This document shows, in pieces, positions 1-20,884 of a stretch of DNA of 22,776 nucleotides. The notes below the pieces were generated by a model, which was not told the origin of the DNA, did no database searches, and was given only the letters and a program-made list of their open reading frames with translations. Position 1 is the stretch's first letter. Every line of letters begins with the position of its first letter. The translations under genes were made by a program, and so were the position numbers. This DNA is from a virus: positions 1-22,776 of IMG/VR virus record IMGVR_UViG_3300035698_010122. One strand, written 5' to 3'.

Positions 1-275
1 CGGGAATCAAACCTTGTTTCCTCTGCTTTAACTGCTGTCCAATGAGGTGCTAATGCTTGACGTGTTAATCTATTGCCATCAGCATCACCAATCGCGGGAG
101 GGGCTAGCTCTCCGATGCCGTTTGCAGTATGGATATTGCTTGACAAGAATGCTCTAAAACCTATGGGAGAAATCTCTCCACCGCGCATAGGCTCGAACCC
201 GCCTCCCTGCATAGGGAGCATATCGGCGCTAACCGTTAAGCTAAGCGCTAACAGAAACCAGATTAATTTTTTCAT
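1..275 (-). CDS. Exported protein of unknown function (3' end cut by window edge)
   Basis: The gene runs off the left edge, leaving about 91 N-terminal residues. It starts with a textbook Sec signal peptide: MKK, a hydrophobic core (LIWFLLALSLTV) and a likely signal peptidase I site after SA (VSA/D). The exported part is rich in Gly, Pro and Met at first (MLPMQGGG, EPMRGGE) and then looks like an ordinary soluble domain. The ATG overlaps the stop of the upstream gene as TAATG, so translation is probably coupled. Its position at the end of the virion operon, next to another signal-peptide protein, suggests a product acting in the periplasm or at the cell surface late in infection. I do not recognise the family. 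A lysis-related role is possible, but no spanin lipobox or catalytic motif is visible in this part. Confidence 0.7.
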   Translation of the reverse strand, partial: MKKLIWFLLALSLTVSADMLPMQGGGFEPMRGGEISPIGFRAFLSSNIHTANGIGELAPPAIGDADGNRLTRQALAPHWTAVKAEETRFDS

Positions 276-610
276 TATTTGTAGTAGCAGACGTTTAATA
301 CTGTTGAGGTGGATTCCTCAATCACCTTTAAGTTACTCAAAGGAGCCCCGGAATAAAAGAAGTTCGTCCCAGCCTCCTGCCGTATCCCGACCGAAGCGGT
401 TGGCGTGCCTCTATCTTGCCATCTGAAAGGCGCGCCCTCAGCGTTCATTAGCACTCGTGTTGCATCACCTGGTAAGTTAGGAAGCGCTTGAGCGGTTGCT
501 AAATCAGTGTCTTGCTCGCAACCTAGTTGCGTGTAGGTTTTCTCATGATCTGCGTCAGCCGCAAAACTTGAGATTGAAAACAAGAGTAAAATCAAAGTTA
601 ATATTTTCAT
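275..610 (-). CDS. Secreted small phage protein with conserved PTASVG / LNVCYY C-terminal motif
   Basis: This 111-residue protein has an N-terminal signal peptide (MKILTLILLLFSISSFA) with likely cleavage near residue 18. The mature C-terminal half reads RWQDRGTPTASVGI (residues 63-76), then a Tyr-Gly turn, and ends VLNVCYYK. From memory, this arrangement (basic-aromatic-Asp-Gly-Thr, PTAxVG, then LNVxYY at the extreme C-terminus) recurs in small phage proteins encoded near tail or capsid genes, usually without a signal peptide. Cys31 and Cys108 could form a disulfide in the periplasm. It overlaps the upstream gene by ATGA and the downstream gene by TAATG. The signal peptide is clear; the function (surface decoration, exported receptor-binding or masking factor) is inference. 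Confidence 0.75.
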   Translation of the reverse strand: MKILTLILLLFSISSFAADADHEKTYTQLGCEQDTDLATAQALPNLPGDATRVLMNAEGAPFRWQDRGTPTASVGIRQEAGTNFFYSGAPLSNLKVIEESTSTVLNVCYYK

Positions 611-9715: not shown

Positions 9716-10801
9716 TTATAGCGAGTGGTCAGTGGCAGCAGAGCGTATTTTAGTCGCCCAGCCTTCATTGAGTTTCGCGCCAGTCCAGTGTGCTTTCCAT
9801 GCCAACGAGCCAAGCTCATTGTATGGATCCGCAGCACCGGCAGAACCAGGTGCGTGCTGTATTGCTATTACAGCAGGTACGCGGTTCGGGTTTTGACTCA
9901 TGCCTTTGTAAAGCTGTTCAGCGTGATTAGTACCTAAACCAACTGAACCAAAAGCCTCGCGGCCATAGATAAAAGTCGAATAGATATCATTCAAAATTTC
10001 TGTAGCGCCACGAAGACCAGCTGCGGTAGTCGTGCCCGCGCCGGTTGATACTGGTGCGATTTCAGTAGAACACCATCGAACGCCTTCTACAGCGCCGAAT
10101 TCGTTTACTTTCACATCGGTATAACCCGCATACTGCTCAACAGGAATGAAACCACTAATATCACGGATATTGTTTTCCAAATCAACGTGACATATGCCCA
10201 TATAAGATGAACGTACCGCTTTGGTATCCGTAAGATCCGCCCCAGTCGCCTGAGTGAAGAATTTCATTGCTGAATTACGAGCCAAAGTATTGACAGCCGC
10301 CCGAATATCGGTTGCTGCGATTGCGGTAACAACCGTAGTATCACCAGCCACTTGATTCGCATAACGAATATTAGTTGTCGTATCAAATACGTTACGCATC
10401 AATATATTGAGCGAGTGACCCGCATTTTCACCTAACTTATCAAACAATTTAGCCGACTGAGTATTGACTTGCATCAAGTCAACTTCTTCAGACACGTTGA
10501 TAAAATTACCGTATTTATTAATTACGGCGGTTATGTTGGTGTAAGTCGGGGTTGCAGCAGTTCGGCCAAGCTGAAGTGCGGTCATATCACCCGATAATTC
10601 AGTTAATGGCGTAATTGCCGGTGCCATGTTATCTAACCGTTCCCACTTGACTGACATCGTGCCTTGATTCTTCGACAGATTACCGGGAAGAACTCCATTG
10701 TAATACGGGAAATTGCGCTCCGCAGCACGAAGTAAGCCACGCATCAAATTGTAATTGACCGGGGCGGTTAGATGAGTAAGGGTGTTAGTTACAGTACCCA
10801 T
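9716..10801 (-). CDS. Major capsid protein, N4 gp56-type
   Basis: This 361-residue protein forms the icosahedral shell. It matches the N4 gp56 family of major capsid proteins (HK97-like fold). The N-terminal region contains KNQGTMSVKWERL (residues 44-56), then PLTEL (65-69), the ITAVINKYGNFINVSEEVD segment (about 91-109), and a long helix with LGENAGHSLNILMRNV. The C-terminal part has WCSTEIAPV, a short Gly-rich loop, FIYGREAFGSVGL, and NELGSLAWKAHWTGAKLNE, as usual near the end of this family. A strong AGGAG lies 10 bases before the ATG, the best ribosome site in the head block and fitting for the most abundant product. It follows the scaffold gene and is closed by an intrinsic terminator. 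Confidence 0.92.
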   Translation of the reverse strand: MGTVTNTLTHLTAPVNYNLMRGLLRAAERNFPYYNGVLPGNLSKNQGTMSVKWERLDNMAPAITPLTELSGDMTALQLGRTAATPTYTNITAVINKYGNFINVSEEVDLMQVNTQSAKLFDKLGENAGHSLNILMRNVFDTTTNIRYANQVAGDTTVVTAIAATDIRAAVNTLARNSAMKFFTQATGADLTDTKAVRSSYMGICHVDLENNIRDISGFIPVEQYAGYTDVKVNEFGAVEGVRWCSTEIAPVSTGAGTTTAAGLRGATEILNDIYSTFIYGREAFGSVGLGTNHAEQLYKGMSQNPNRVPAVIAIQHAPGSAGAADPYNELGSLAWKAHWTGAKLNEGWATKIRSAATDHSL

Positions 10802-11505: not shown

Positions 11506-11708
11506 GGTAGTTTAACTCCAAAATGTGATAATGCTAAAATATATCCTTCTTTCATCCCTGAGACAAATTTCCAATCATCCGGGTTTTGCCCTTTTGAGTA
11601 GGAAGGTATCGCAGGGGCTTCTTTGAGAATTGCTTCTTCAAATTCTGGCCACCACTTTTGCTCTTTAAGCGGTACTAGATTTAACTTGTGTTTGTCGTAT
11701 ACGCTCAC
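11502..11708 (-). CDS. Small conserved protein between portal and scaffold
   Basis: The best-supported part is the segment after the portal gene: PEFEEAILKEAPAIPSYSKGQNPDDWKFVSGMKEGYILALSHFGVKLP, a compact helical protein of the kind found between portal and scaffold genes in related phages, where it is unannotated. A longer reading would begin at an ATG at 11759 and overlap the portal by about 95 bases. I instead propose the GTG at 11708-11706 (68 residues), which has GGA 8 bases upstream and cuts the overlap to 44 bases. The start remains uncertain. The stop overlaps the scaffold start by ATGA. Function is unknown; a scaffold or portal assembly partner is a guess from position. Confidence 0.6.
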   Translation of the reverse strand: MSVYDKHKLNLVPLKEQKWWPEFEEAILKEAPAIPSYSKGQNPDDWKFVSGMKEGYILALSHFGVKLP

Positions 11709-13605
11709 GTAGTAATTCCAGTTTATGTTGTTCGGTAACAATCTTAGTAACTGCAGCAAAAGTTTGATTGGTTAACTGTCCCTGCTCTTCCATTACTTTA
11801 ATTTGTTCCATAAGGCCATTAACATCTGTTTCCATAATTAATAGCTCTTGTTCGTCGGCTTGTTTTTCTTGGCCTAACTGTTGTATTTCCGCTTGAAGCT
11901 GCTCAATTGCTTGCTCAAATTGCTGCATAAGCTCTGCATTTGCATCAGCATCAATGATAAATCGCTCTGGATCCTTAAGTCCTGAGAAATTCCAAGTTTC
12001 CTGCGTCACCTCTTCCCAATTTGTTCTCTCTGAGATTTGCTGTATTGAAGACGAGAATTGAACGGCGGTAATAAATTTTGAGGCGCGTTGCTCTTCGCCT
12101 AGCACCTCTTTAGATCCAACGACTTCAAAAATAACATTCTCTGGGATGTCTTTCGCGCTTGCCCTCATAAAATCAGGCATATGAAGCTCGTTATTGTAAA
12201 ACTCGTAATTATCAAGCTTCTCTCTGTTCATATCGTTCTGCATGTATAGAAACGGCTTTAAGCCCTGTCTATCAAGGACGCCAAGAAAATCAACCGTTCT
12301 AATTTCTGATTTCTGGTCTTTCTTAGATATTTCAAAAGCGGTCTGTTCTGTGCTGGCTGAAACTCCTGACCTAGTGGCGTCAACCGAAGTCCCGCGTTCG
12401 ACCTCTTGTTTCATTGTTTGGTAGGCTGTAAACATATAAGACGGGTCGCCTATATCAACTACCTTGATTTGAGCGGCGCCACCTTTTACTGCCGTGGACG
12501 ATCCCGGAGTCATATCAAGGCCGCCGTTTGCGACTAATGTAGTGTCATAGCCATCATAATAAGTAGGCGGGTCGTTTTTCCTTTCCGCGCCATCCATGAA
12601 CTTATTAGCTAATTCTGTTGCTAATGTATGGGTTGGGCTGCGTTTAATTAGAGGGGAAGTGTAATATTCAGTTCGAACATCGTCTTTTTCATATCCAGCG
12701 TAAATGATATTTGAGTAAGGCAAATCGTTCTTTTTAGCGAAAATCAACACCTCTTCAGCTAAAACTATCGTGTAATTCTTTAAAACTAACGGTTTTTTGC
12801 CGTTTTCTATCGTTAAATCGCCAATATATCGCACTAATTCAATATCATCTGATGGATTATCGGGTTTCTTGATTTTTTCCTTATTCATAATCCCGCTAAG
12901 TTTTGACACCTTTGTATAAGGCATCCACTCTTTAATAATCATTGAGCCACGATAAAACAAATCGGTGCCTATAATGGCTGGGCTTGGGTCTGGGTAGCAG
13001 TTCCACATTGAATGAGGGTGCCAAACAGGGGCATCCACCTTCTTAACTTGTCCGTTTTTACCGTATTTAACTAATGATTCGTTTCGAGCTTCAGCGACAA
13101 ATCCGCCATGAGCAAGCGCTTCTTTAATCGACATTTTAACTCTGTCACGTAAACCAAAATCTGCGTGTTGCTGAGCCATTAGCGCCCTGATTGTGCCATC
13201 GGTCATTTGCTGCAGCTTGGTATCTATCCCTTTTCCACCGGTTTCTTCATCAATACCGGTATCAATCTCCGCGTGCGGTCTAAACCATTTGCGATCAAGA
13301 GGGAAGGCCATTCTAATAGCGTCTGCGGCAATAATTTCTATCGCGTCAGCCATTGCGCCCATTTGTACAGCAGAGTGCCAGTCGTCTTCGCCACCGGCTT
13401 TATTTGATGTTTTAGGGGGTTCCATTGCTATCTGAGCGTCTATAGTCTTCCAGATAACTTCCATTGCTTTGCGGGTATCGCGGCCTGATCGCCTTCCTAA
13501 CTCAGATGTTACGGCGGTTTGGATTTTCTCGAAGTGCTTCGCGGTTATCTTGAGTTTTTTAGGCTTTTTCTCTGCCTTGGGTATTTCGCCTATTTCGTCT
13601 ACCAA
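11665..13605 (-). CDS. Portal protein
   Basis: This 646-residue protein would form the dodecameric ring at one capsid vertex through which DNA is packed and ejected. The N-terminal half has DDWHSAVQMGAMADAIEIIAADA and then PVWHPHSMWNCYPDPS, the helical and wing/clip layout usual in large portals of short-tailed phages. VDATRSGVSASTEQTAFEIS precedes the crown. The last 90 residues are a long coiled coil (QFEQAIEQLQAEIQQLGQE and on), typical of a C-terminal barrel. It lies straight after terL. The start is a TTG, overlapping the terL stop by 7 bases, with AGGGA 8 bases before; the next ATG is near residue 47 and would cut off the conserved N-terminal helix. Confidence 0.9.
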   Translation of the reverse strand: MVDEIGEIPKAEKKPKKLKITAKHFEKIQTAVTSELGRRSGRDTRKAMEVIWKTIDAQIAMEPPKTSNKAGGEDDWHSAVQMGAMADAIEIIAADAIRMAFPLDRKWFRPHAEIDTGIDEETGGKGIDTKLQQMTDGTIRALMAQQHADFGLRDRVKMSIKEALAHGGFVAEARNESLVKYGKNGQVKKVDAPVWHPHSMWNCYPDPSPAIIGTDLFYRGSMIIKEWMPYTKVSKLSGIMNKEKIKKPDNPSDDIELVRYIGDLTIENGKKPLVLKNYTIVLAEEVLIFAKKNDLPYSNIIYAGYEKDDVRTEYYTSPLIKRSPTHTLATELANKFMDGAERKNDPPTYYDGYDTTLVANGGLDMTPGSSTAVKGGAAQIKVVDIGDPSYMFTAYQTMKQEVERGTSVDATRSGVSASTEQTAFEISKKDQKSEIRTVDFLGVLDRQGLKPFLYMQNDMNREKLDNYEFYNNELHMPDFMRASAKDIPENVIFEVVGSKEVLGEEQRASKFITAVQFSSSIQQISERTNWEEVTQETWNFSGLKDPERFIIDADANAELMQQFEQAIEQLQAEIQQLGQEKQADEQELLIMETDVNGLMEQIKVMEEQGQLTNQTFAAVTKIVTEQHKLELLRERIRQTQVKSSTA

Positions 13606-15164
13606 TTTCTTAGTCCCTTCTTTTTAGATTTAGTGACAGTTCTAACTATTTTAGTCATTGCGTGTCGCCGCATCATGTAAGCATAGCGCGCAGCACTCAT
13701 AATATCATCCTTAATCTTCACTATTTCATTGTTTTTACGGTGATACATGCGCTTTTCTTCAAAAAACTCACTACAATTGGCAAAAATCTTCAAAGTTCCT
13801 TCAATAAATGCGTTTAACATGGCGTCAATGCCTACTTCTACCCCGTTTCCGCCCGATCCTTCCGCATTTCCGGGGCTTGGTGGGTTAGAAAACCGCTCAT
13901 GGTGCATATTTATGTTGTGCGGGTCGTTTCTCAAAATGTCGGCGTGTGGCTTGCCTGAGTCTTTATCGCGCTTCATGCCATCATGAGGCCAAACAACCGG
14001 GATCCAATCAGCGTGTCCAACCTTCATAATATTGGCTAATACGGCTGTTAATACCCTTGAGCCTTTCCAGACACGATAGACATAAGCGATTTGCTCATCC
14101 CGGTCGAAGGCCATCCAGACTAATGCGGCGGGGTGATCGTCTCCAATATCATAGCCAATAATACGAGGCCAATGGCGCGGTATCTCAAACACCTCGCAAG
14201 TTATGTCTTCGTCAGCAACCGGGAATATTAAGCCCGAGCCAACCATAGGCTCACCGGCAGACCTCATTTTTTGCTCATGCAGAGGATAATCCGCTAATTT
14301 CTGTTTTCGTGTTTCTGGGGTCATATGGGGCGCATCATCCCAAGTGGCTTTTGTTAGTCCGTACCCCGGCTTTTCGCCTTCCAGAAAAGTGTAAACCACA
14401 TCAGTTACGCCCTCTTCTGGGGTAAAAGTGATATAAGCAATGCCATTAGTCGATAATAAACCGCGAAGTAACTGACTCCAAATATCAGAAGGGGGTTCCT
14501 CGTCGCACCAAACAACATGAACAACGTAACCCATGAACTTCTTAGCGCCCTGCTCATAGGGTTTAAAATAGAGCTTAGACCAGCCTCCTGAAACGTGTTT
14601 GACTAAAACGGTTTCTATTGCGTTCGGAACGCCGGCCTTTTTGGTTCTTTTGCCGATCAGGTCTTTTGCAATAGAGCCCGTCCCGAGCATATCCTCATCG
14701 GCGGGGTCGCCTAATAGTTCGCGTTGGCACCTGTCTCGGGTTGTCTCATTTGTGGTAGAAGAACAAATTATTTCTACTTTTCTGGTAAATCGATGTCCTT
14801 GCCAGCCATCAGGGTAGATGTCTTGGCCAGCCATAGGGCAGATAAGCGGCGCTTCGTAATTTAAAGTGGAAGGCCAAAACTCAGGATAAAAGAACTCCCC
14901 CGCTTTCGGATAAACGCCGGTTGCATGAAAACCCGTCTCTAGTCCACCGCAATAACTCTTGCCAATCTGGTTCGCACACATCAAAGCGCGTCTTGTCGCT
15001 AAACCAACTTTATCAATATCTGACGGGGCATAGACATATTCGCCTAGTCCTTTTTCAGCGTGGAAGGCTTTTTGAAAGTCGTAGGGGACGTACAAATCAG
15101 ATTTGTGCGTATTATTGTAGTCCCCTAATTCGTCGGCTAATTCAGCCGCTTCTTCATAATTCAC
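13599..15164 (-). CDS. terL: Terminase large subunit (packaging ATPase and nuclease)
   Basis: This 521-residue protein pumps DNA into the procapsid and cuts concatemers. The ATPase domain has Walker A CANQIGKSY (63-71), Walker B VHVVWCDEE (215-223, catalytic Glu among DEE) and coupling motif YITFTPEEG (244-252). The nuclease domain has GYDIGDD (Asp339), WPHDG (Asp395) and a C-terminal DDIMSAARYAYM. Length and motif spacing fit the T4-like/Terminase_6 class. The start is GTG, 11 bases inside the end of the GT8-like gene, with no good Shine-Dalgarno site, so terL translation probably depends on that gene. No small subunit lies immediately upstream, where it would usually be. Confidence 0.95.
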   Translation of the reverse strand: MNYEEAAELADELGDYNNTHKSDLYVPYDFQKAFHAEKGLGEYVYAPSDIDKVGLATRRALMCANQIGKSYCGGLETGFHATGVYPKAGEFFYPEFWPSTLNYEAPLICPMAGQDIYPDGWQGHRFTRKVEIICSSTTNETTRDRCQRELLGDPADEDMLGTGSIAKDLIGKRTKKAGVPNAIETVLVKHVSGGWSKLYFKPYEQGAKKFMGYVVHVVWCDEEPPSDIWSQLLRGLLSTNGIAYITFTPEEGVTDVVYTFLEGEKPGYGLTKATWDDAPHMTPETRKQKLADYPLHEQKMRSAGEPMVGSGLIFPVADEDITCEVFEIPRHWPRIIGYDIGDDHPAALVWMAFDRDEQIAYVYRVWKGSRVLTAVLANIMKVGHADWIPVVWPHDGMKRDKDSGKPHADILRNDPHNINMHHERFSNPPSPGNAEGSGGNGVEVGIDAMLNAFIEGTLKIFANCSEFFEEKRMYHRKNNEIVKIKDDIMSAARYAYMMRRHAMTKIVRTVTKSKKKGLRNW

Positions 15165-15819
15165 TTGAATTCATTGACTCCAAATAATCGCGCCATAGCT
15201 CACTAAATGGACAATTCTTATAAGCTTCAAAGCAAGGCGTCCCCTCAGTGTAGTGTATTAAATAAGGGATCTGAATTGTTTTGTCATACCCTACCAGGTG
15301 ATTCCAGCCTTCAGGCAAGCCACCTATCTCGAATAACTCCGTCCAAGAAAATTGATGAAGCTTAAGGCCTTCTGTTGAATTAACATAAACCGGTGTTAGT
15401 TGAGTGCATTTCGCGCAGTTGAACAACATCATAGAAGACCAGTTCTTTTTCTCGTACTTAGTCTGCGTTGCGCCTAAAAACTTGGTTTCTTCTTTTGGCA
15501 CATGATTATGTTTACGCACCATAACCTTATATTCGTCTTCAGCCATATCAAATAGCTTTTTGATGTCGGTTGTTACCAGCATATCCGCATCTAAAAAGAG
15601 AGCCCAGCCTTCAAAATCACAAAGCCAAGGCACTAAAAAGCGGGTATCGGCAAACTCAGTAGAGGCCATCGGGTCACTATGACCTATAGGGAGTTGGCTT
15701 CGTTTTAACGGGGTAATTGATACCGGTACAGAAGCATGTTCTAAAATTGAATGAGCGAGCACGTGGTACGCCACTGTTTCACGTGAATCATATCCGATAA
15801 ATACTTGTAGTGGTTTCAT
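15154..15819 (-). CDS. GT8-like glycosyltransferase
   Basis: This 221-residue glycosyltransferase has a GT-A-type DxD motif in ALFLDADML (Asp77, Asp79), which binds the metal and sugar nucleotide. The N-terminus reads LQVFIGYDSRETVAYHVL (a Rossmann-like first strand with YDSRE), then TRFLVPWL before the DxD strand. KNWSSMMLFNC and LIHYTEGTPCFEAY near the C-terminus (including a His proposed in the family for metal binding) are typical. It is shorter than bacterial LPS GT8 enzymes (about 300 residues), as expected of the phage branch. It overlaps FkbM (ATGA) and terL (11 bases). The donor sugar and acceptor cannot be told from the sequence. Confidence 0.85.
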   Translation of the reverse strand: MKPLQVFIGYDSRETVAYHVLAHSILEHASVPVSITPLKRSQLPIGHSDPMASTEFADTRFLVPWLCDFEGWALFLDADMLVTTDIKKLFDMAEDEYKVMVRKHNHVPKEETKFLGATQTKYEKKNWSSMMLFNCAKCTQLTPVYVNSTEGLKLHQFSWTELFEIGGLPEGWNHLVGYDKTIQIPYLIHYTEGTPCFEAYKNCPFSELWRDYLESMNSSEL

Positions 15820-16448
15820 GTTGTCACCATTATAAAGTCGCTGTGGATGGAGGCACTTTGTCTGTACCCTAGTTTATTAAGGAATTTAATCGCGGCGTAA
15901 CGATCATCAACAAAGTAACCGTGATCCTTTTGCTCTACACAAATCACCGGCTTACACCTTTTAATCGTCTCAATTGCGCCCTCACACACAAATAACTCAT
16001 AGCCTTCGACATCAATCTTTATAAGATCAACATTTTCAAGGTTAAAATCATCGAGTCGTTTAATTTCTGCTTTTACATTCCCTTTTTCGTCTAAATGGGT
16101 ATGCCCTGTATTGTCGTCTTCCCATTTCAACATCACTTCGCCAGTTTTGTTTCCCAGCGCGCAATCATTCAATGAGTAGTTCCCCGCTACATTTTCCCGG
16201 AAACATTCGCGATGTTCAGGGATAGGCTCAAAGGCGATCACTTCCTCGAAGTCTTTTACTAGATGCATTGACCATAGCCCAACGTGACCACCAATATCTA
16301 CCGCTACCCGTTTTTGTTTACAAGCGTCGATTGATAATCTTATTCGGTCATATTGATACGTGCCGTTTTGAACCACTTCCGAGAACTCGGCTAAATGAAC
16401 TTCTTTATCAGGAAACCAGATATTGTTGACTTGCTTCATAGACCTCAT
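15816..16448 (-). CDS. FkbM-family SAM-dependent methyltransferase
   Basis: This 210-residue protein has clear FkbM hallmarks: SAM motif I VAVDIGGHVGLWS (48-60), acidic post-motif FEPIPEHRECFRENV (73-87) and the family signature LIKIDVEGYELFVCEGA (142-158). FkbM enzymes usually O-methylate sugars or glycosylated natural products, which agrees with the surrounding glycosyltransferases, so I infer capping of a sugar they add. Two ATGs are possible: 16448 and 16439 (M-K-Q-V-N-N). Each has GAGG three bases upstream, and both overlap the preceding gene, by 41 or 32 bases. Its stop overlaps the GT8-like gene as ATGA. Confidence 0.88.
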   Translation of the reverse strand: MRSMKQVNNIWFPDKEVHLAEFSEVVQNGTYQYDRIRLSIDACKQKRVAVDIGGHVGLWSMHLVKDFEEVIAFEPIPEHRECFRENVAGNYSLNDCALGNKTGEVMLKWEDDNTGHTHLDEKGNVKAEIKRLDDFNLENVDLIKIDVEGYELFVCEGAIETIKRCKPVICVEQKDHGYFVDDRYAAIKFLNKLGYRQSASIHSDFIMVTT

Positions 16449-17094
16449 CTACCTCAATTTGGCTCATCATTGTTTTACAATGATCGCACTTAGTTAAACT
16501 CCCGCATGGCGGGGCATTATTTGCCCTGATATTGATATGATCGTCATATCCTAATGTATCAGGACGAGTCATGCCGCCCCATAAAACAACTGAGGGCGTG
16601 TTAAATGCCGCCGCCGCATGATGCAACGCACCATCGACGCCGATAAATAATTTAGCGTGCTTCACATATAGAAAAGCGGTTCTGATATCGGTTTTTATGC
16701 CGGTAACGCCCGCTAGTTTGGGTTTCCCGTATAGTGGCTGAATTATTTCACAATCAAGGCGATCGACTAATTGTTGCCACTTCCACCATGATTTATTTTC
16801 GGAAAAACCTGATTTCGTGTACGGATCGATAAAGATATAGTCTTTGTCAACTTGTCCGGAGACGTACAAATCCCCTCGAATAGCTTTAAAGTGGGGATTG
16901 AATACAAGCCTATTGTGAACGATGGCTTCGACATAAGGGCGGTTGCCTTTTCTGTTTTTCAGTATTATATCATTACCAATAAACGGATTATTCAAAAAAG
17001 CGGCTTCGTATTGCCTTTTCTGAACTTTTTCGTACTCAATGGTAGAGCGCAGGCCGGTATTTGCGTATATCTCACGCACTTGACCGGTTGCCAT
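16408..17094 (-). CDS. GT9-like (heptosyltransferase-type) glycosyltransferase, uncertain start
   Basis: This protein has 228 residues from the only canonical start (MATGQVREIY). The C-terminal half is GT9-like: YIFIDPYTKSGF (86-97), KWQQLVDRL, then LFIGVDGALHHAAAAFNTPSVVLWGG (149-174), the nucleotide-sugar-binding element in ADP-heptose transferases. The CGSLTKCDHCKTM tail has three cysteines. It is short for GT9 (about 330). In-frame codons just upstream, without a stop, encode F-K-I-G-Y-G-D-Y-I, and GT9 proteins begin with a strand-loop carrying G-D whose Asp is a proposed catalytic base. I think the true protein includes it, through a -1 frameshift or an AUA start (see 17115-17121). Confidence 0.72.
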   Translation of the reverse strand: MATGQVREIYANTGLRSTIEYEKVQKRQYEAAFLNNPFIGNDIILKNRKGNRPYVEAIVHNRLVFNPHFKAIRGDLYVSGQVDKDYIFIDPYTKSGFSENKSWWKWQQLVDRLDCEIIQPLYGKPKLAGVTGIKTDIRTAFLYVKHAKLFIGVDGALHHAAAAFNTPSVVLWGGMTRPDTLGYDDHINIRANNAPPCGSLTKCDHCKTMMSQIEVDEVYEASQQYLVS

Positions 17095-17111
17095 GATGTA
17101 ATCGCCGTAAC

Positions 17112-17765
17112 CTATTTTAAATTCCCCTTCTTGTGGTGTCCAAACGGGAAAACGCGGTCGAAAATATTAACCGTGCCTTCTGCTTTTGGGCTTAGATTCT
17201 TTGATTCAACGGCTGTTTGTCGTCGAACAACATCAAAAACAAACCCGTCATGCCACTCTGAAAGGTCTAAAACCTTCTCAGACAGGTATATATCTTCGTA
17301 TGCGTCCGTAAATCGGACATTATCAGGGTGATCGGCGTCCCAACCGACAAAAGAGGTACATACATTGAACCCAATTCGACCCATATAGCATAAATAGGTG
17401 TTTTTCAGGCAGTTTTTAAGGAATTTGGCCTCTACTTTGGCCTTTAGCACTACATCTGAATCAATCCAGAAGACTTTTCCGCCTTTCCTGAGTTCTGCTA
17501 TCTGGGCAAAGGACTTCCGGCAGAAGCGGCTTAACTGGTATCGATAGTCAGGTATGTTCAAAGTTGAACTTACCCGTTGCATCTTCAGGTAATTCCCCAT
17601 TATAGGCGCAAGCGGCAAGTAGGTGATTCGTTTGCTTTTCGGGAAACTCTGCTTAACTTCATAATAAACCGTTAATGGGAAATCGCAGAATTTAATATAG
17701 GACTTAAGAAACTTTTCTCCGTAGAGCTTGTATCCATCGTCCCCAAAGGAGGTGACAAAACGCAT
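17112..17765 (-). CDS. DSD-motif glycosyltransferase of marine-phage type
   Basis: This 217-residue protein has a GT-A-type DxD motif at VFWIDSDVV (Asp102, Asp104). The N-terminus MRFVTSFGDDGYKLYGEKFLKSY and a mid-part LTVYYE fit small glycosyltransferases common in marine phages and in bacterial capsule loci. SEWHDGFVFDVVRR (about 169-182) and FPFGHHKKGN at the end (aromatic-His-Lys-Gly) are also typical of this group. The start has GAGG seven bases upstream and lies 94 bases inside the preceding gene, a long overlap with both ends apparently real. The stop TAG is directly preceded by TTTAAAA, a slippery heptamer in the correct phase. Substrate unknown. Confidence 0.75.
   Translation of the reverse strand: MRFVTSFGDDGYKLYGEKFLKSYIKFCDFPLTVYYEVKQSFPKSKRITYLPLAPIMGNYLKMQRVSSTLNIPDYRYQLSRFCRKSFAQIAELRKGGKVFWIDSDVVLKAKVEAKFLKNCLKNTYLCYMGRIGFNVCTSFVGWDADHPDNVRFTDAYEDIYLSEKVLDLSEWHDGFVFDVVRRQTAVESKNLSPKAEGTVNIFDRVFPFGHHKKGNLK
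17115..17121 (-). other. Candidate -1 frameshift heptamer T TTA AAA (or AUA start site)
   Basis: On the minus strand the last sense codons before the TAG at 17114-17112 read AAT TTA AAA, so T TTA AAA is a slippery X XXY YYZ heptamer in the correct zero frame. After a -1 slip the reading is TTT AAA ATA GGT TAC GGC GAT TAC ATC ATG, joining in frame to the GT9-like gene. Alternatively the AAGGGG at 17125-17130, eight bases before the ATA, could direct initiation at that AUA. I see no strong downstream hairpin. Function inferred. Confidence 0.45.
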
Positions 17766-18322
17766 AAATTAACCTCATAGTGTTCTGCTATCTCAAGTAA
17801 CATTCGATGCTCAATATCCCATTTATGGTTATGAGACACCGTTGTTTTTGGATTGTATACAGAATAATAGTCAAGTTTAGGATCCATTAATGTGTCGAAT
17901 CCCGCCAATATAATTTGTCCACCAATTCGGTGACACGCAATAATTACCGCAGCAAGGCCAGTTGAGACGTTGCGCCCGTCTGCACCGTTACCTTTAAAGC
18001 CGGAGCGACTTCTAAAAATATCATTCCAGTATTCAGTTTCTTCGACCGGGATGATGTAGTTTTTCCCTATTAGCTTCGATTCTTTATTTTTGTCCCAACT
18101 GCCTTTTTTGGGATAGCACCAATATTCTCTAGGCTCGTCCTGCCCGAGCATATTTTGAAGGACTTCGGTTGAACTGCAGATATAATCTGTTTTCATCCCG
18201 TAATCGGCTTTATTGTAAAATCTCTTATAGTGTTTTAGCCGAACTACAGTGTGCTGGTCTATTTTATCGCCCAGACCCGCGCCCATAAGTGACCGGCCAT
18301 GCCCAATAATTATCGTCCCCAT
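17672..18322 (-). CDS. GT29-like (sialyltransferase-type) protein
   Basis: This 216-residue protein has an N-terminal IIIGHGRSLMGAGLGDKID (4-22), in which G-x-G-x-S-L resembles the L-sialylmotif region of GT29/GT42 enzymes. VVRLKHYKRF and the ADYGMKTDYICSST segment follow. A second conserved block, NVSTGLAAVIIACHRIGGQIILAGFD (about 118-143), resembles the S-motif: S-T-G at the helix start and an x-L-x-G-F-D strand. HNHKWDIEHRMLLEIA (about 164-179) carries His residues in the usual place near the C-terminus. Similar short proteins occur in phage and bacterial polysaccharide loci. CMP-sialic acid as donor is not shown; only the fold pattern is suggested. Its last 30 codons overlap the next gene in another frame. 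Confidence 0.6.
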   Translation of the reverse strand: MGTIIIGHGRSLMGAGLGDKIDQHTVVRLKHYKRFYNKADYGMKTDYICSSTEVLQNMLGQDEPREYWCYPKKGSWDKNKESKLIGKNYIIPVEETEYWNDIFRSRSGFKGNGADGRNVSTGLAAVIIACHRIGGQIILAGFDTLMDPKLDYYSVYNPKTTVSHNHKWDIEHRMLLEIAEHYEVNLCVLSPPLGTMDTSSTEKSFLSPILNSAISH

Positions 18323-19320
18323 CTTTCACATACTCTCATTGATTTATACCAAGGGGTTCGCCAAACGCCTTTCCCGGTCATGTATGGCCATTTTAACCGA
18401 TTGTTGCCCGTCCCGAGTTCATTCATTTTCTGATAGGGCGGCTTTATTGCCATAACAAACTGTCCCATTGACCCCGCAACATGGCAAATATAGGAAAATA
18501 CGGAAAACACTTCTCTCACGGCGTACACCAAGGCAAAGACTTCCTCCATGTCATTATGATCAAGCTCAGGGTTCGCCATCCATGAAGGACATTCAGCGCC
18601 ACAAATTTCGCCATCGACTCGGGCGTATTGCAAGCTGACAACGCCTCCTTCCAGAAAGACATCGGGATTGATATCAGATCGTCCCCCCGACCACGAGACA
18701 CCGGTATGGTCGCCGTAAATTTCCTTGTATTTTTTAACGCGCTCCATATCAGGCAAGAGATACGGGGTGCCTGGTGGAGTGATACCCATACGATAACACC
18801 GCAACAAGTCTCCGGCCGGGACAAAGCTATCGAATTCACCTTCTTGATAATCTTCAGGCGTATTTCCCTGCCCCGGTTCGCGCCGCCAGCGTGAAATAAA
18901 GGTCGCGTTTGGGAAAGAGCGTCTAAAAATTGGCAGTAACCGGTCGTCACACTCAATCACCGCAGATGGGCAATCTTTTAAAAATTCGGCAAAGACGGAC
19001 GCGAATAGTATTTCATCCCCTATGCCTTGCTCCGCCAGAATTAGACATTTTTCGTCTTTTCCTGCCCATTTCGGGTATATCCAATCTCTATAAAAGAAGT
19101 CGAGCGCCCATTTTGAGCGGAATTCGTACCCTTGAAAGGAGAAATCCCCGTTCATAAGTCTTGCCGCCGCTAAGCGCCAATTCCATTGTGGATCGTCATT
19201 TTTAAATTGGAGTCGACCCTGCTTTTCCATTTTTTTGAGCCGTTTAACCAACCTGTCCCGTTTAAAGGGAGGCATTTCGTTCTCATTAACAACGGTTATC
19301 AGCGCGTCAAGGTCGCTCAT
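18310..19320 (-). CDS. GT9-like glycosyltransferase of the TPR-associated type
   Basis: This is a 336-residue protein. The N-terminal 85 residues are helical (two helical hairpins, TPR-like remnants) and end in WIYPKWAGKDEKCLIL. Next comes AEQGIGDEILFASVFAEFL (96-114): the E-Q-G-x-G-D-E loop is the glycan-binding/catalytic loop of TPR-linked GT9-like proteins, followed by VIECDDRLLPIFRRSFP. Towards the end, SVFSYICHVAGSMG fits the usual nucleotide-sugar loop with HxAG-x-x-G, and a Trp-rich tail follows. It is the first enzyme of the cassette, and its ATG overlaps the preceding small gene as ATGA. The two GT9-like genes are only weakly similar to each other by eye. Substrate unknown. Confidence 0.8.
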   Translation of the reverse strand: MSDLDALITVVNENEMPPFKRDRLVKRLKKMEKQGRLQFKNDDPQWNWRLAAARLMNGDFSFQGYEFRSKWALDFFYRDWIYPKWAGKDEKCLILAEQGIGDEILFASVFAEFLKDCPSAVIECDDRLLPIFRRSFPNATFISRWRREPGQGNTPEDYQEGEFDSFVPAGDLLRCYRMGITPPGTPYLLPDMERVKKYKEIYGDHTGVSWSGGRSDINPDVFLEGGVVSLQYARVDGEICGAECPSWMANPELDHNDMEEVFALVYAVREVFSVFSYICHVAGSMGQFVMAIKPPYQKMNELGTGNNRLKWPYMTGKGVWRTPWYKSMRVCERWGR

Positions 19321-19726: not shown

Positions 19727-19881
19727 GGCCGCACCCGATTATAAGCCACTAATAACTCCAAGTAAGCAACCGCGTAAGTCGGCGGTTCCTCCCCCCATGC
19801 GCTCACAGTGCGAGTATTTAGCCCCAATCTTCTGGATAGCTCAGCCTTGGTAATGCCAGCTCTTTCCAGTAATTCCTCCAT
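19723..19881 (-). CDS. Small helix-turn-helix protein (first gene of the late operon)
   Basis: This 52-residue protein (MEELLERAGITKAELSRRLG...) has a helix-turn-helix of Cro/XRE type: helix 2 ITKAELSRRLG (10-20) and recognition helix NTRTVSAWG (22-30), followed by a C-terminal helix AVAYLELLVAYNRV. Minimal Cro-like proteins of this size occur in phages and usually act as dimers. GGAGG sits four bases before the ATG. It is the first gene after two promoter-like sequences that include a 12-bp palindrome, so it may regulate its own operon or act as a late switch. An alternative is a packaging role, since some small terminase subunits carry such a fold; 52 residues is short for that. Confidence 0.75.
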   Translation of the reverse strand: MEELLERAGITKAELSRRLGLNTRTVSAWGEEPPTYAVAYLELLVAYNRVRP

Positions 19882-19911
19882 AAAACCTCCATAGATGTGC
19901 GTCTTTTATAG

Positions 19912-19954
19912 ATGATAAGACTATATATATAGATAAGCAATGAATCTTTTTCAA
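19912..19954 (-). promoter_or_regulatory. Two overlapping sigma-70-like promoters with a 12-bp palindrome
   Basis: Minus-strand promoter 1 is TTGCTT (19940-19935), 17 bases, TATCAT (19917-19912). Promoter 2 is TTGAAA (19954-19949), 17 bases, TATATA (19931-19926). The perfect palindrome CTATATATATAG (19921-19932) lies between the -35 and -10 boxes and would suit a dimeric repressor such as the downstream helix-turn-helix protein. GATAAG occurs on either side. A 30-40 base leader runs to the ATG at 19881. Confidence 0.6.
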
Positions 19955-20020
19955 CGGATTAAGGCAGAGAGAGAGAAAAAGGGCTGTAAAATTTGGACGG
20001 GGGACTATACCAGTGAGCGA

Positions 20021-20035
20021 GCCCCGAAAGGGGGG
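20021..20035. other. GC-rich hairpin with GAAA tetraloop inside the noncoding region
   Basis: The sequence GCCCC GAAA GGGGGG forms a 4-bp CCCC/GGGG stem with a GAAA loop in an AT-rich surround, with another G5 run at 19999-20003. No T-run follows on either strand, so it is not an intrinsic terminator. A cohesive-end or packaging site, or an RNA structure, is possible. Confidence 0.4.
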
Positions 20036-20153
20036 ATAGGGTGCGCGATTCCGTCAAAATGCCGTATATATCAATCATTTAACATAATGGGTGTTATACG
20101 CAGTTGACCTAAGAGCTAGACAGGGCAAGGGCTCAAGTTATCAACAGGCACTA

Positions 20154-20169
20154 TGTTTATCAGTAAACA
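20154..20169. repeat. Perfect inverted repeat TGTTTA-TCAG-TAAACA
   Basis: Six-base arms are perfect complements around a 4-base centre. It looks like an operator half-site pair. Related words recur in the same gap: TGTTAAACA at 20383-20391, GGTTAAACA at 20461-20469 and TGTTTAACA at 20505-20513, with ATTTAACA at 20077-20084. A protein-binding array is plausible; AT-rich background makes chance matches possible. Confidence 0.45.
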
Positions 20170-20533
20170 CTAACATTCAATAGAATCAACAACTTAAGCG
20201 CTGTATACTAAGTAACCATCAAGCCAATACACTGGCGCGATATAAGCTAACTACCTGATAAACCTTATGTAATACCTGGTGGGCTCAAATTGTTTTATTC
20301 CTGACAACTATAATGTATGGACAAAGAACTACCATTTTTATATCAATCAATCACTTAGCTACCTTAAGCTATACGTTACCAATGTTAAACAGATACAAGC
20401 CATTATAGGCACCGAATAAAGCCACAAACAGCATTAAGCCATAGTCTTTTAGTTCTTAAGGGTTAAACAGTGCGTGCAGCCATTTAACGAGACTGTCTCA
20501 TGGATGTTTAACAAGTGAAGGGTGAATAAGCAG

Positions 20534-20556
20534 CGCTTAGAGTTAAGCGGTTTTTA
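20534..20556 (+). terminator. Plus-strand terminator-like hairpin at the convergent end
   Basis: CGCTTA GAGT TAAGCG (20534-20549), a perfect 6-bp stem, is followed by G and TTTTTA on the plus strand. It would stop transcription coming rightward from the noncoding gap. The stem overlaps the stop codon of the minus-strand gene at 20543. The stem is only half GC, so it is a weak candidate. Confidence 0.45.
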
Positions 20557-20884
20557 CTTCCGATATAATAGGCACTAGGTTAAAGCCTTTATCCTTTAAG
20601 CCTTGGCGTATCTTTCCAGACTTATCATTGATAATGGTATCAACAACTTTTTCAACAGCCATGACAGGATCGAACGTCTTTCGGATCTCTTTCAAGTCTT
20701 CCGGGGCTACTTTGGGAAGGATTCTTTCTACTTGGTTCTTAATAGCGTTTATCTGTGCAACGCTGCAGGACTTCTCTCCCATTGCGATCTCAAACTCTAA
20801 TTTTAATAGCTTAGTAAGGTTTGCCGCAGTCGTCTGGCGTGCGGTATTAATATGCCTGTTTAATAAGTTTACGTCGTCGGCCAT
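20543..20884 (-). CDS. Helical 113-residue protein, unknown (terminase small subunit candidate)
   Basis: This 113-residue protein is nearly all helical, with helices near residues 3-30 (LLNRHINTARQTTAANLTKLL), 30-55 (with SCSVAQINAIKNQV) and 60-95 (LKEIRKTFDPVMAVEKVVDTIIND). No signal peptide or membrane segment is present. AAGGAA lies upstream of the ATG and a perfect TATAAT at 20936-20931 could drive it. It is the only minus-strand gene outside the late operon, separated from it by 660 noncoding bases, and no small terminase subunit is recognised beside terL. Size and helical content would suit a small terminase subunit, but this is weak evidence; a regulator or early factor is as likely. 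Confidence 0.65.
   Translation of the reverse strand: MADDVNLLNRHINTARQTTAANLTKLLKLEFEIAMGEKSCSVAQINAIKNQVERILPKVAPEDLKEIRKTFDPVMAVEKVVDTIINDKSGKIRQGLKDKGFNLVPIISEVKTA

Follow-up and report, generated by a model that had tools for sequence, protein, structure and literature searches.

The DNA analysed here (the window) comprises 22,776 bases of an uncultured virus record. Its minus strand carries a podovirus late operon, with terL, the portal gene and the major capsid gene, and the tail and ejection proteins encoded further along. Six ORFs at window positions 15154-19320 run in the same direction as terL and the virion genes and are transcribed in the order F, E, D, C, B, A, with terL following (Table 1). 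Their position agrees with that given by a first-pass annotation of this DNA, which had proposed a cassette for sugar transfer and methylation. Pfam families and predicted folds bear out its reading of five glycosyltransferases, with at least four types among them (two GT9-like, one GT29, one DSD-type with a GT-A fold in D, and one GT8-like) plus an FkbM-family methyltransferase.

Table 1. Genes of the cassette, the small ORFs that precede it and the virion genes discussed here, in window coordinates.
Feature	Position	Strand	Assignment	Evidence
Small HTH-like ORF, 52 aa	19723..19881	-	possible first gene of the unit	HTH judged by eye
Small ORF, 84 aa	19472..19726	-		WCKWC motif; 4-nt overlap with next ORF
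Small ORF, 52 aa	19317..19475	-		4-nt overlap with start of F
F	19320-18310	-	first, likely initiating glycosyltransferase	GT9-type GT-B domain
E	18322-17672	-	GT29 (sialyltransferase-like) glycosyltransferase	PF00777
D	17765-17112	-	GT-A glycosyltransferase	predicted fold; D102-S-D104 and C-terminal H211-x-K-G
C	17094-16408	-	compact GT9-like protein, variable slot	PF01075
B	16448-15816	-	FkbM-family methyltransferase, variable slot	PF05050
A	15819-15154	-	GT8-like glycosyltransferase	DxD and His
terL	15164-13599	-	large terminase, next gene of the cassette unit	PF03237 E 2e-23; PF17289 E 3e-13
Portal	11665..13605	-	portal / head-tail connector	phrog_332 E 3e-18
Major capsid protein	9716..10801	-	candidate acceptor	phrog_1357 E 5e-40

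Neighbouring genes of the cassette overlap at F/E (13 nt), E/D (94 nt), C/B (41 nt), B/A (4 nt) and A/terL (11 nt). The earlier description of a set joined by overlapping starts and stops holds for these junctions and fails for D/C, a 17-nt gap that is the only cassette junction lacking an overlap. The cassette is joined to terL as had been proposed. Three small ORFs precede F, with a 4-nt overlap at each junction including that with F, and this layout suggests that the unit begins at least three small genes before F, at 19881, and so earlier than had been proposed. The 84-aa ORF among them gave no match in a PHROG search. An operon promoter had also been placed next to the cassette; in a promoter scan, promoter-like matches upstream were not clearly more frequent than in shuffled sequence, which does not confirm this element. 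An Rfam search returned no match. We also considered a position of the cassette between terS and terL. Genes of 111-136 aa upstream of F look terS-like, but the profiles gave no support for the gene of the window.

E is a member of GT29 by its match to PF00777 (E 6e-7, 29.6 bits against a cut-off of 23), and its family profile matches solved GT29 sialyltransferases in a PDB search (2wml, E 1e-4). The window has no recognised gene for making sialic acid. B belongs to the FkbM family by both PF05050 (E 3e-19, 70.1 bits, cut-off 22.7) and TIGR01444 (E 5e-24, 85.4 bits, cut-off 37.7). C aligned with PF01075 (GT9) at E 1e-7 and 31.6 bits (cut-off 22), over residues 134-194 only, in its C-terminal part, and resembles RfaQ (NF007742, E 7e-10). 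The match of A to PF01501 (GT8, E 4e-4, 20.3 bits) lies under the cut-off of 24.3. A is for this reason termed only GT8-like, although D77 and D79 of its DxD motif and the C-terminal H189 are invariant in 18 members; it also matches phrog_28018 (E 4e-45).

Pfam searches with F and D gave no match, and both proteins were modelled by AlphaFold2 from alignments of relatives (mean pLDDT 88.8 in each case). A structure search had been named as the check that could show these proteins not to be glycosyltransferases; instead, the F and D models have GT-B and GT-A folds. Among known structures D matches LARGE1 (Z 14.5), GlyE (13.9), glycogenin (13.8) and WbbM (13.6) and is, judged from its model, a GT-A enzyme of GT8/GT6 type. 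The GT-B domain of F, at about residues 88-336, is of GT9 type (WaaC Z 13.7, 3tov Z 13.7, TibC Z 12.8). Across 64 F members Q98 G99 x G101 D102 is invariant, and E97 and H280 are nearly so. The fold and the invariant G101-D102 place F in GT9 despite the lack of a Pfam match. Searches of the PDB with the sequence profiles of F and of D found no catalytic relative. In fold, WaaC, a heptosyltransferase of LPS, and TibC, a heptosyltransferase of proteins, are equally close to F.

The N-terminus of F in the model is a short helical stretch of about 85 residues, which stands where other members of the family have TPRs. No TPR was detected in the window F with the profile of group I alone. A mixed profile does find TPR, and the F proteins of group II have it, whereas the window F has only these roughly 85 helical residues. 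The catalytic motifs of the cassette glycosyltransferases are conserved across relatives. No membrane segment was found in any cassette protein of the window, and the enzymes are thus cytoplasmic, in the compartment in which the proteins of capsid and tail are synthesised.

The GT-B domain of F is homologous to that of a large bacterial TPR-glycosyltransferase (TPR-GT) family, with 27-38% identity to bacterial loci by tblastn. Matches of the F profile in bacterial genomes reached E 3e-84; a better match, at 3e-112, is a phage-like contig (L194). The association with flagellin was examined in 34 genomes picked solely for holding an F relative, 21 of which have flagellin genes. In 10 of these 21, among the matches listed, no more than 10 kb separated an F relative from a flagellin gene, against 0.85 expected under uniform scatter as a simple null. 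Of 77 bacterial loci, about 30 have A close to F-type genes.

Two known systems resemble F. The autotransporter heptosyltransferases TibC and AAH share its GT9-type fold, and the acceptor of TibC is a protein. TibC has an iron finger and forms a dodecamer. These enzymes differ from F in that identity is about 10% and the phage has no autotransporter acceptor. FlmG of Caulobacter crescentus combines TPRs with a GT-B domain; its TPRs bind flagellins, and O-glycosylation takes place in the cytoplasm (PMC7591256). The F family has the same layout, a GT-B domain preceded by TPRs at the N-terminus of a soluble, cytoplasmic protein, and includes members near flagellin genes; it is by way of this family that the window F is compared with FlmG. 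The window F differs from FlmG in being phage-encoded, in its short helical N-terminus and in standing beside at least three further glycosyltransferases.

A TerL search yielded 80 related viral contigs, of which 28 have 5 kb or more of sequence ahead of terL. A version of the cassette lies directly upstream of terL in all 19 sister contigs of this length; the marine clade that comes next by TerL has it in none of its nine contigs. Related phages do then carry the cassette at the same place, as the first-pass annotation had asked, and the 19/19 occurrence rules out chance; some of the 19 contigs are near-copies of one another. By TerL score, 18 of the 19 rank above every contig that lacks the cassette. 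E is present in 19 of them, F and D in 17 each, Gmd (GDP-mannose 4,6-dehydratase) in 16 and A in 14. One more contig, L026, ends within F and holds a fragment of it, and L010 starts inside E. The usual order in relatives is F, a small gene in some cases, E, D, a variable slot, A and terL. Throughout the lineage, at identities of 26-45%, the order of F and E is kept and so are the residues of their active sites. A tree built from 120 F domains placed 42 of the 43 group I sequences in one set (SH-aLRT 100), apart from bacteria and from most of group II. Given this grouping and the contrast between 19/19 sisters and 0/9 marine contigs, group I F, with the set upstream of terL, is on the sequence evidence an old trait of the lineage that has been under selection.

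The slot between D and A is occupied in the window by C (GT9) and B (FkbM) and in most relatives by Gmd and a DegT-family enzyme, a 3-dehydratase of ColD type. Homologues of C occur upstream of terL together with F in three further contigs (L033, L035 and L037). Other genes found in the slot in some relatives encode 2OG-Fe oxygenase-like proteins, cytidylyltransferase/cupin proteins, methyltransferases and radical SAM/SPASM proteins. Gene content across the contigs shows an F/E/D/A core that is inherited with the phage lineage, and a D-A slot that is swapped between phages.

The Gmd of the relatives matches at E 4e-95. Their DegT enzyme was considered as a perosamine synthetase, a reading ruled out in favour of ColD type by the PDB scores (WbdK/ColD E 6e-101 against perosamine synthetase E 4e-21) and by the active site, in which His replaces the PLP lysine in 19 of 21 readable members. 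From the ColD-type match and the Lys-to-His exchange, the expected product is a GDP-4-keto-3,6-dideoxyhexose. The two genes are present, and the pair would constitute a GDP-3,6-dideoxyhexose pathway. Gmd with a ColD-type enzyme is a route to O-antigen sugars such as colitose. The relatives' DegT enzyme shares the ColD match and the Lys-to-His exchange with the ColD/WbdK and Gmd system of colitose synthesis; here the pair is phage-encoded, is missing from the window itself, and has a product that is only predicted.

A related set occurs in a podovirus group that is unrelated to this lineage and has a different capsid (L136-L184 and MW202512). In these phages a TPR-fused F is accompanied by a methyltransferase and A, and 16 records have this set flanked by the major capsid gene on one side and a tail-adaptor or stabilisation gene on the other. 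In the cultured capsid relatives Paracoccus phage KLEP18-1, Rhizobium phage RHph_Y1_10 and Burkholderia phage BcepIL02, that capsid-adjacent position is taken up solely by small genes, structural or unnamed, with no annotated sugar gene. Taken together, the two placements indicate that two phage lineages keep F with A within the particle-assembly block. Among cultured or otherwise annotated phages the cassette proteins are all but missing, with matches in 3 records for F, 2 for D and 18 for A, and in none for E at the threshold used. A adjoins a GT29-like gene and a methyltransferase in Stenotrophomonas phage DLP6 and adjoins D in Pelagibacter phage Mosig; in Caulobacter phage CcrColossus, a tail gene and an endolysin lie close to A and to a gene annotated as GT9. 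These are large phages of other families, and they differ from the present lineage in that the F profile finds no homologue in those regions.

We consider it probable (about 0.6) that the cassette is a phage-encoded module for cytoplasmic O-glycosylation of one or more virion proteins, expressed from the late operon. A virion-protein acceptor is favoured because F belongs to the flagellin-linked TPR-GT family and has a TibC-like fold, because the genes lie late and their products lack membrane segments, and because two unrelated phage groups place the set among head or tail genes. Of the acceptors listed in the first-pass annotation (a virion protein, modified DNA or host LPS), a virion protein is the best of the three, LPS is less probable, and modified DNA is disfavoured by the finding that none of 22 long relatives has a thymidylate-synthase-family gene.

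The main rival is late remodelling of the host LPS core or O-chain, in which soluble GT9, GT8 and GT29 enzymes at the inner membrane would transfer sugars made by the phage onto lipid A-core and progeny or competing phages would then avoid debris or the dying cell. We hold it to be a minority possibility. The resemblance of C to the LPS heptosyltransferase RfaQ and the fit of F to WaaC point this way, as do the O-antigen type of sugar expected from Gmd with the ColD-type enzyme and the use of GT9, GT8 and FkbM types in LPS core synthesis. Moreover, GT8 genes of marine pelagimyophages have been interpreted as O-chain modifiers (PMC7029224). Against LPS stand the lack of any recognised membrane glycosyltransferase, flippase or polymerase among the cassette genes and the membership of F in the TPR-GT family, which in bacteria clusters with genes for flagellin. 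The location within the particle-assembly block in two unrelated phage groups would also be late for protecting the cell. That same flagellin link of the cellular F family could point to a host surface protein such as flagellin or pilin, glycosylated so as to block superinfection or to shed a receptor. Superinfection-exclusion genes are, however, normally expressed early or from prophages, and the cassette sits in a late virion operon with capsid or terminase neighbours in two lineages, so that we regard this acceptor as rather improbable.

Phage glycosyltransferases are best known for DNA modification, and hypermodification of phage DNA, with the enzymes acting on a hydroxymethylated base, would be in keeping with the 2OG-Fe(II) oxygenase-like genes in the slot of some relatives. 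A thymidylate-synthase-family gene, a class that would include base hydroxymethylases, was nevertheless found in 0/22 long relatives, whose records may be incomplete as the window itself is a fragment, by a search whose control was positive in 9/14 genomes. A cytosine-C5 methylase scored above cut-off in only four of the 22. On these two counts DNA glycosylation appears very unlikely; a Tet/JBP search gave no match, its control being silent too. We give equally little credence to the view that an insertion hot spot has collected sugar genes of the host ('auxiliary metabolic genes') as passive cargo that serves no single function. The middle slot is indeed freely exchanged and takes up radical SAM and other unrelated enzymes, but F and E retain order and active-site residues throughout the lineage at the identities given above, and group I F forms one old set in the tree.

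If the acceptor is a virion protein, F, derived from bacterial TPR-GTs that decorate flagellin, would attach the first sugar to Ser or Thr of a structural protein. Judging from their families, E, D, C and A would extend the chain and B would O-methylate the glycan. The first-pass annotation had suggested an oligosaccharide capped by methylation, but the order of the genes says nothing about the order of these steps. The module would be made together with the virion proteins from the late operon, and in relatives the slot would add a supply of GDP-3,6-dideoxyhexose. The glycan might, more speculatively, mask or retune the particle surface towards receptors, grazers, defences or antibodies. The capsid protein is our leading guess for the acceptor, solely on account of the second phage group, whose set adjoins the capsid gene. 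A search for the acceptor through Ser/Thr-rich stretches in virion proteins was uninformative. The capsid protein has a Ser/Thr-rich loop near residue 252, in relatives too, but the loop is Ser/Thr-rich in all aligned members and the comparison had no cassette-free control.

To our knowledge, proven cases of glycosylated phage particles are rare. Virion glycosylation is known in mycobacteriophages (Freeman et al. 2023, as cited in PMC12619734) and is there likewise the work of phage-encoded glycosyltransferases, which we propose here for capsid or tail proteins. The mycobacteriophages are siphoviruses of actinobacteria with proven glycans, whereas the phages described here are podoviruses; the present set of FlmG, GT29 and GT8 types is larger, and the relatives have a sugar-nucleotide pathway of their own. 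Virion glycosylation by phages is thus already known. New are the enzyme set and its lineage-wide fixation in a virion operon, along with a sugar slot that phages swap and the connection with flagellin-type TPR-glycosyltransferases.

We further suggest, tentatively and with the odds against it, that this lineage of uncultured podoviruses uses a flagellin-type cytoplasmic system captured from bacteria to furnish its own particle with a glycan of several sugars that can be swapped, and that most members make their own 3,6-dideoxyhexose donor. The virion would then bear a coat resembling O-antigen, with outer sugars that phages exchange much as bacteria exchange serotypes. A lineage-wide cassette that is tied to virion genes and has a recognisable protein-glycosylating lead enzyme offers a concrete, testable source of particle glycosylation. 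Viral genes of gmd and DegT type are usually listed as host 'auxiliary metabolic genes', and some of them may serve the particle itself. If this is true, phage surfaces would vary through enzymes as well as through protein sequence.

A stretch of some 650 bases lies upstream of the small-gene run, the three small ORFs that precede cassette gene F, and has no ORF of at least 60 aa on either strand. A hairpin overlaps the stop of the 113-aa gene that borders this stretch, and T-rich stretches follow the hairpin on both strands. From its position and a faint pattern, the 113-aa protein may be the small terminase subunit; profiles did not support this identity. The late operon of the window finishes, at its 3' end, with genes for two small proteins whose N-termini resemble signal peptides; the last of these is truncated by the contig end.

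A radical SAM/SPASM protein adjoins A, the GT8-like gene of the cassette, in many relatives and is absent from the window.

Features of the window and of related loci
Feature	Position	Remark
Radical SAM/SPASM protein	L015:7563-8501	adjoins A
Radical SAM/SPASM protein	L026:6347-7294	adjoins A
Methyltransferase, A, GT29-like gene, glutaredoxin, another glycosyltransferase	L189:6762-10658	consecutive; cultured Stenotrophomonas phage DLP6
Group I cassette and terL	L194:1064-9697	entire
Stretch without ORFs of at least 60 aa	window 19890-20540	flanked by small-gene run and 113-aa gene
113-aa gene	window 20543-20884	
Hairpin	window 20534-20549	
Two small proteins	window 3-610	

In uncultured alphaproteobacterial single-cell genomes (L196, L203, L207, L213 and similar loci), a TPR glycosyltransferase gene of the F type adjoins a gene of the A type that runs in the other direction, and such neighbours are a possible bacterial source of the F and A pair. 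The entire cassette of group I, the phage lineage of the window, was also found with terL on a metagenome-assembled contig binned as a gammaproteobacterium (L194). This contig is a phage or prophage, and its binning offers a hint of a gammaproteobacterial host.
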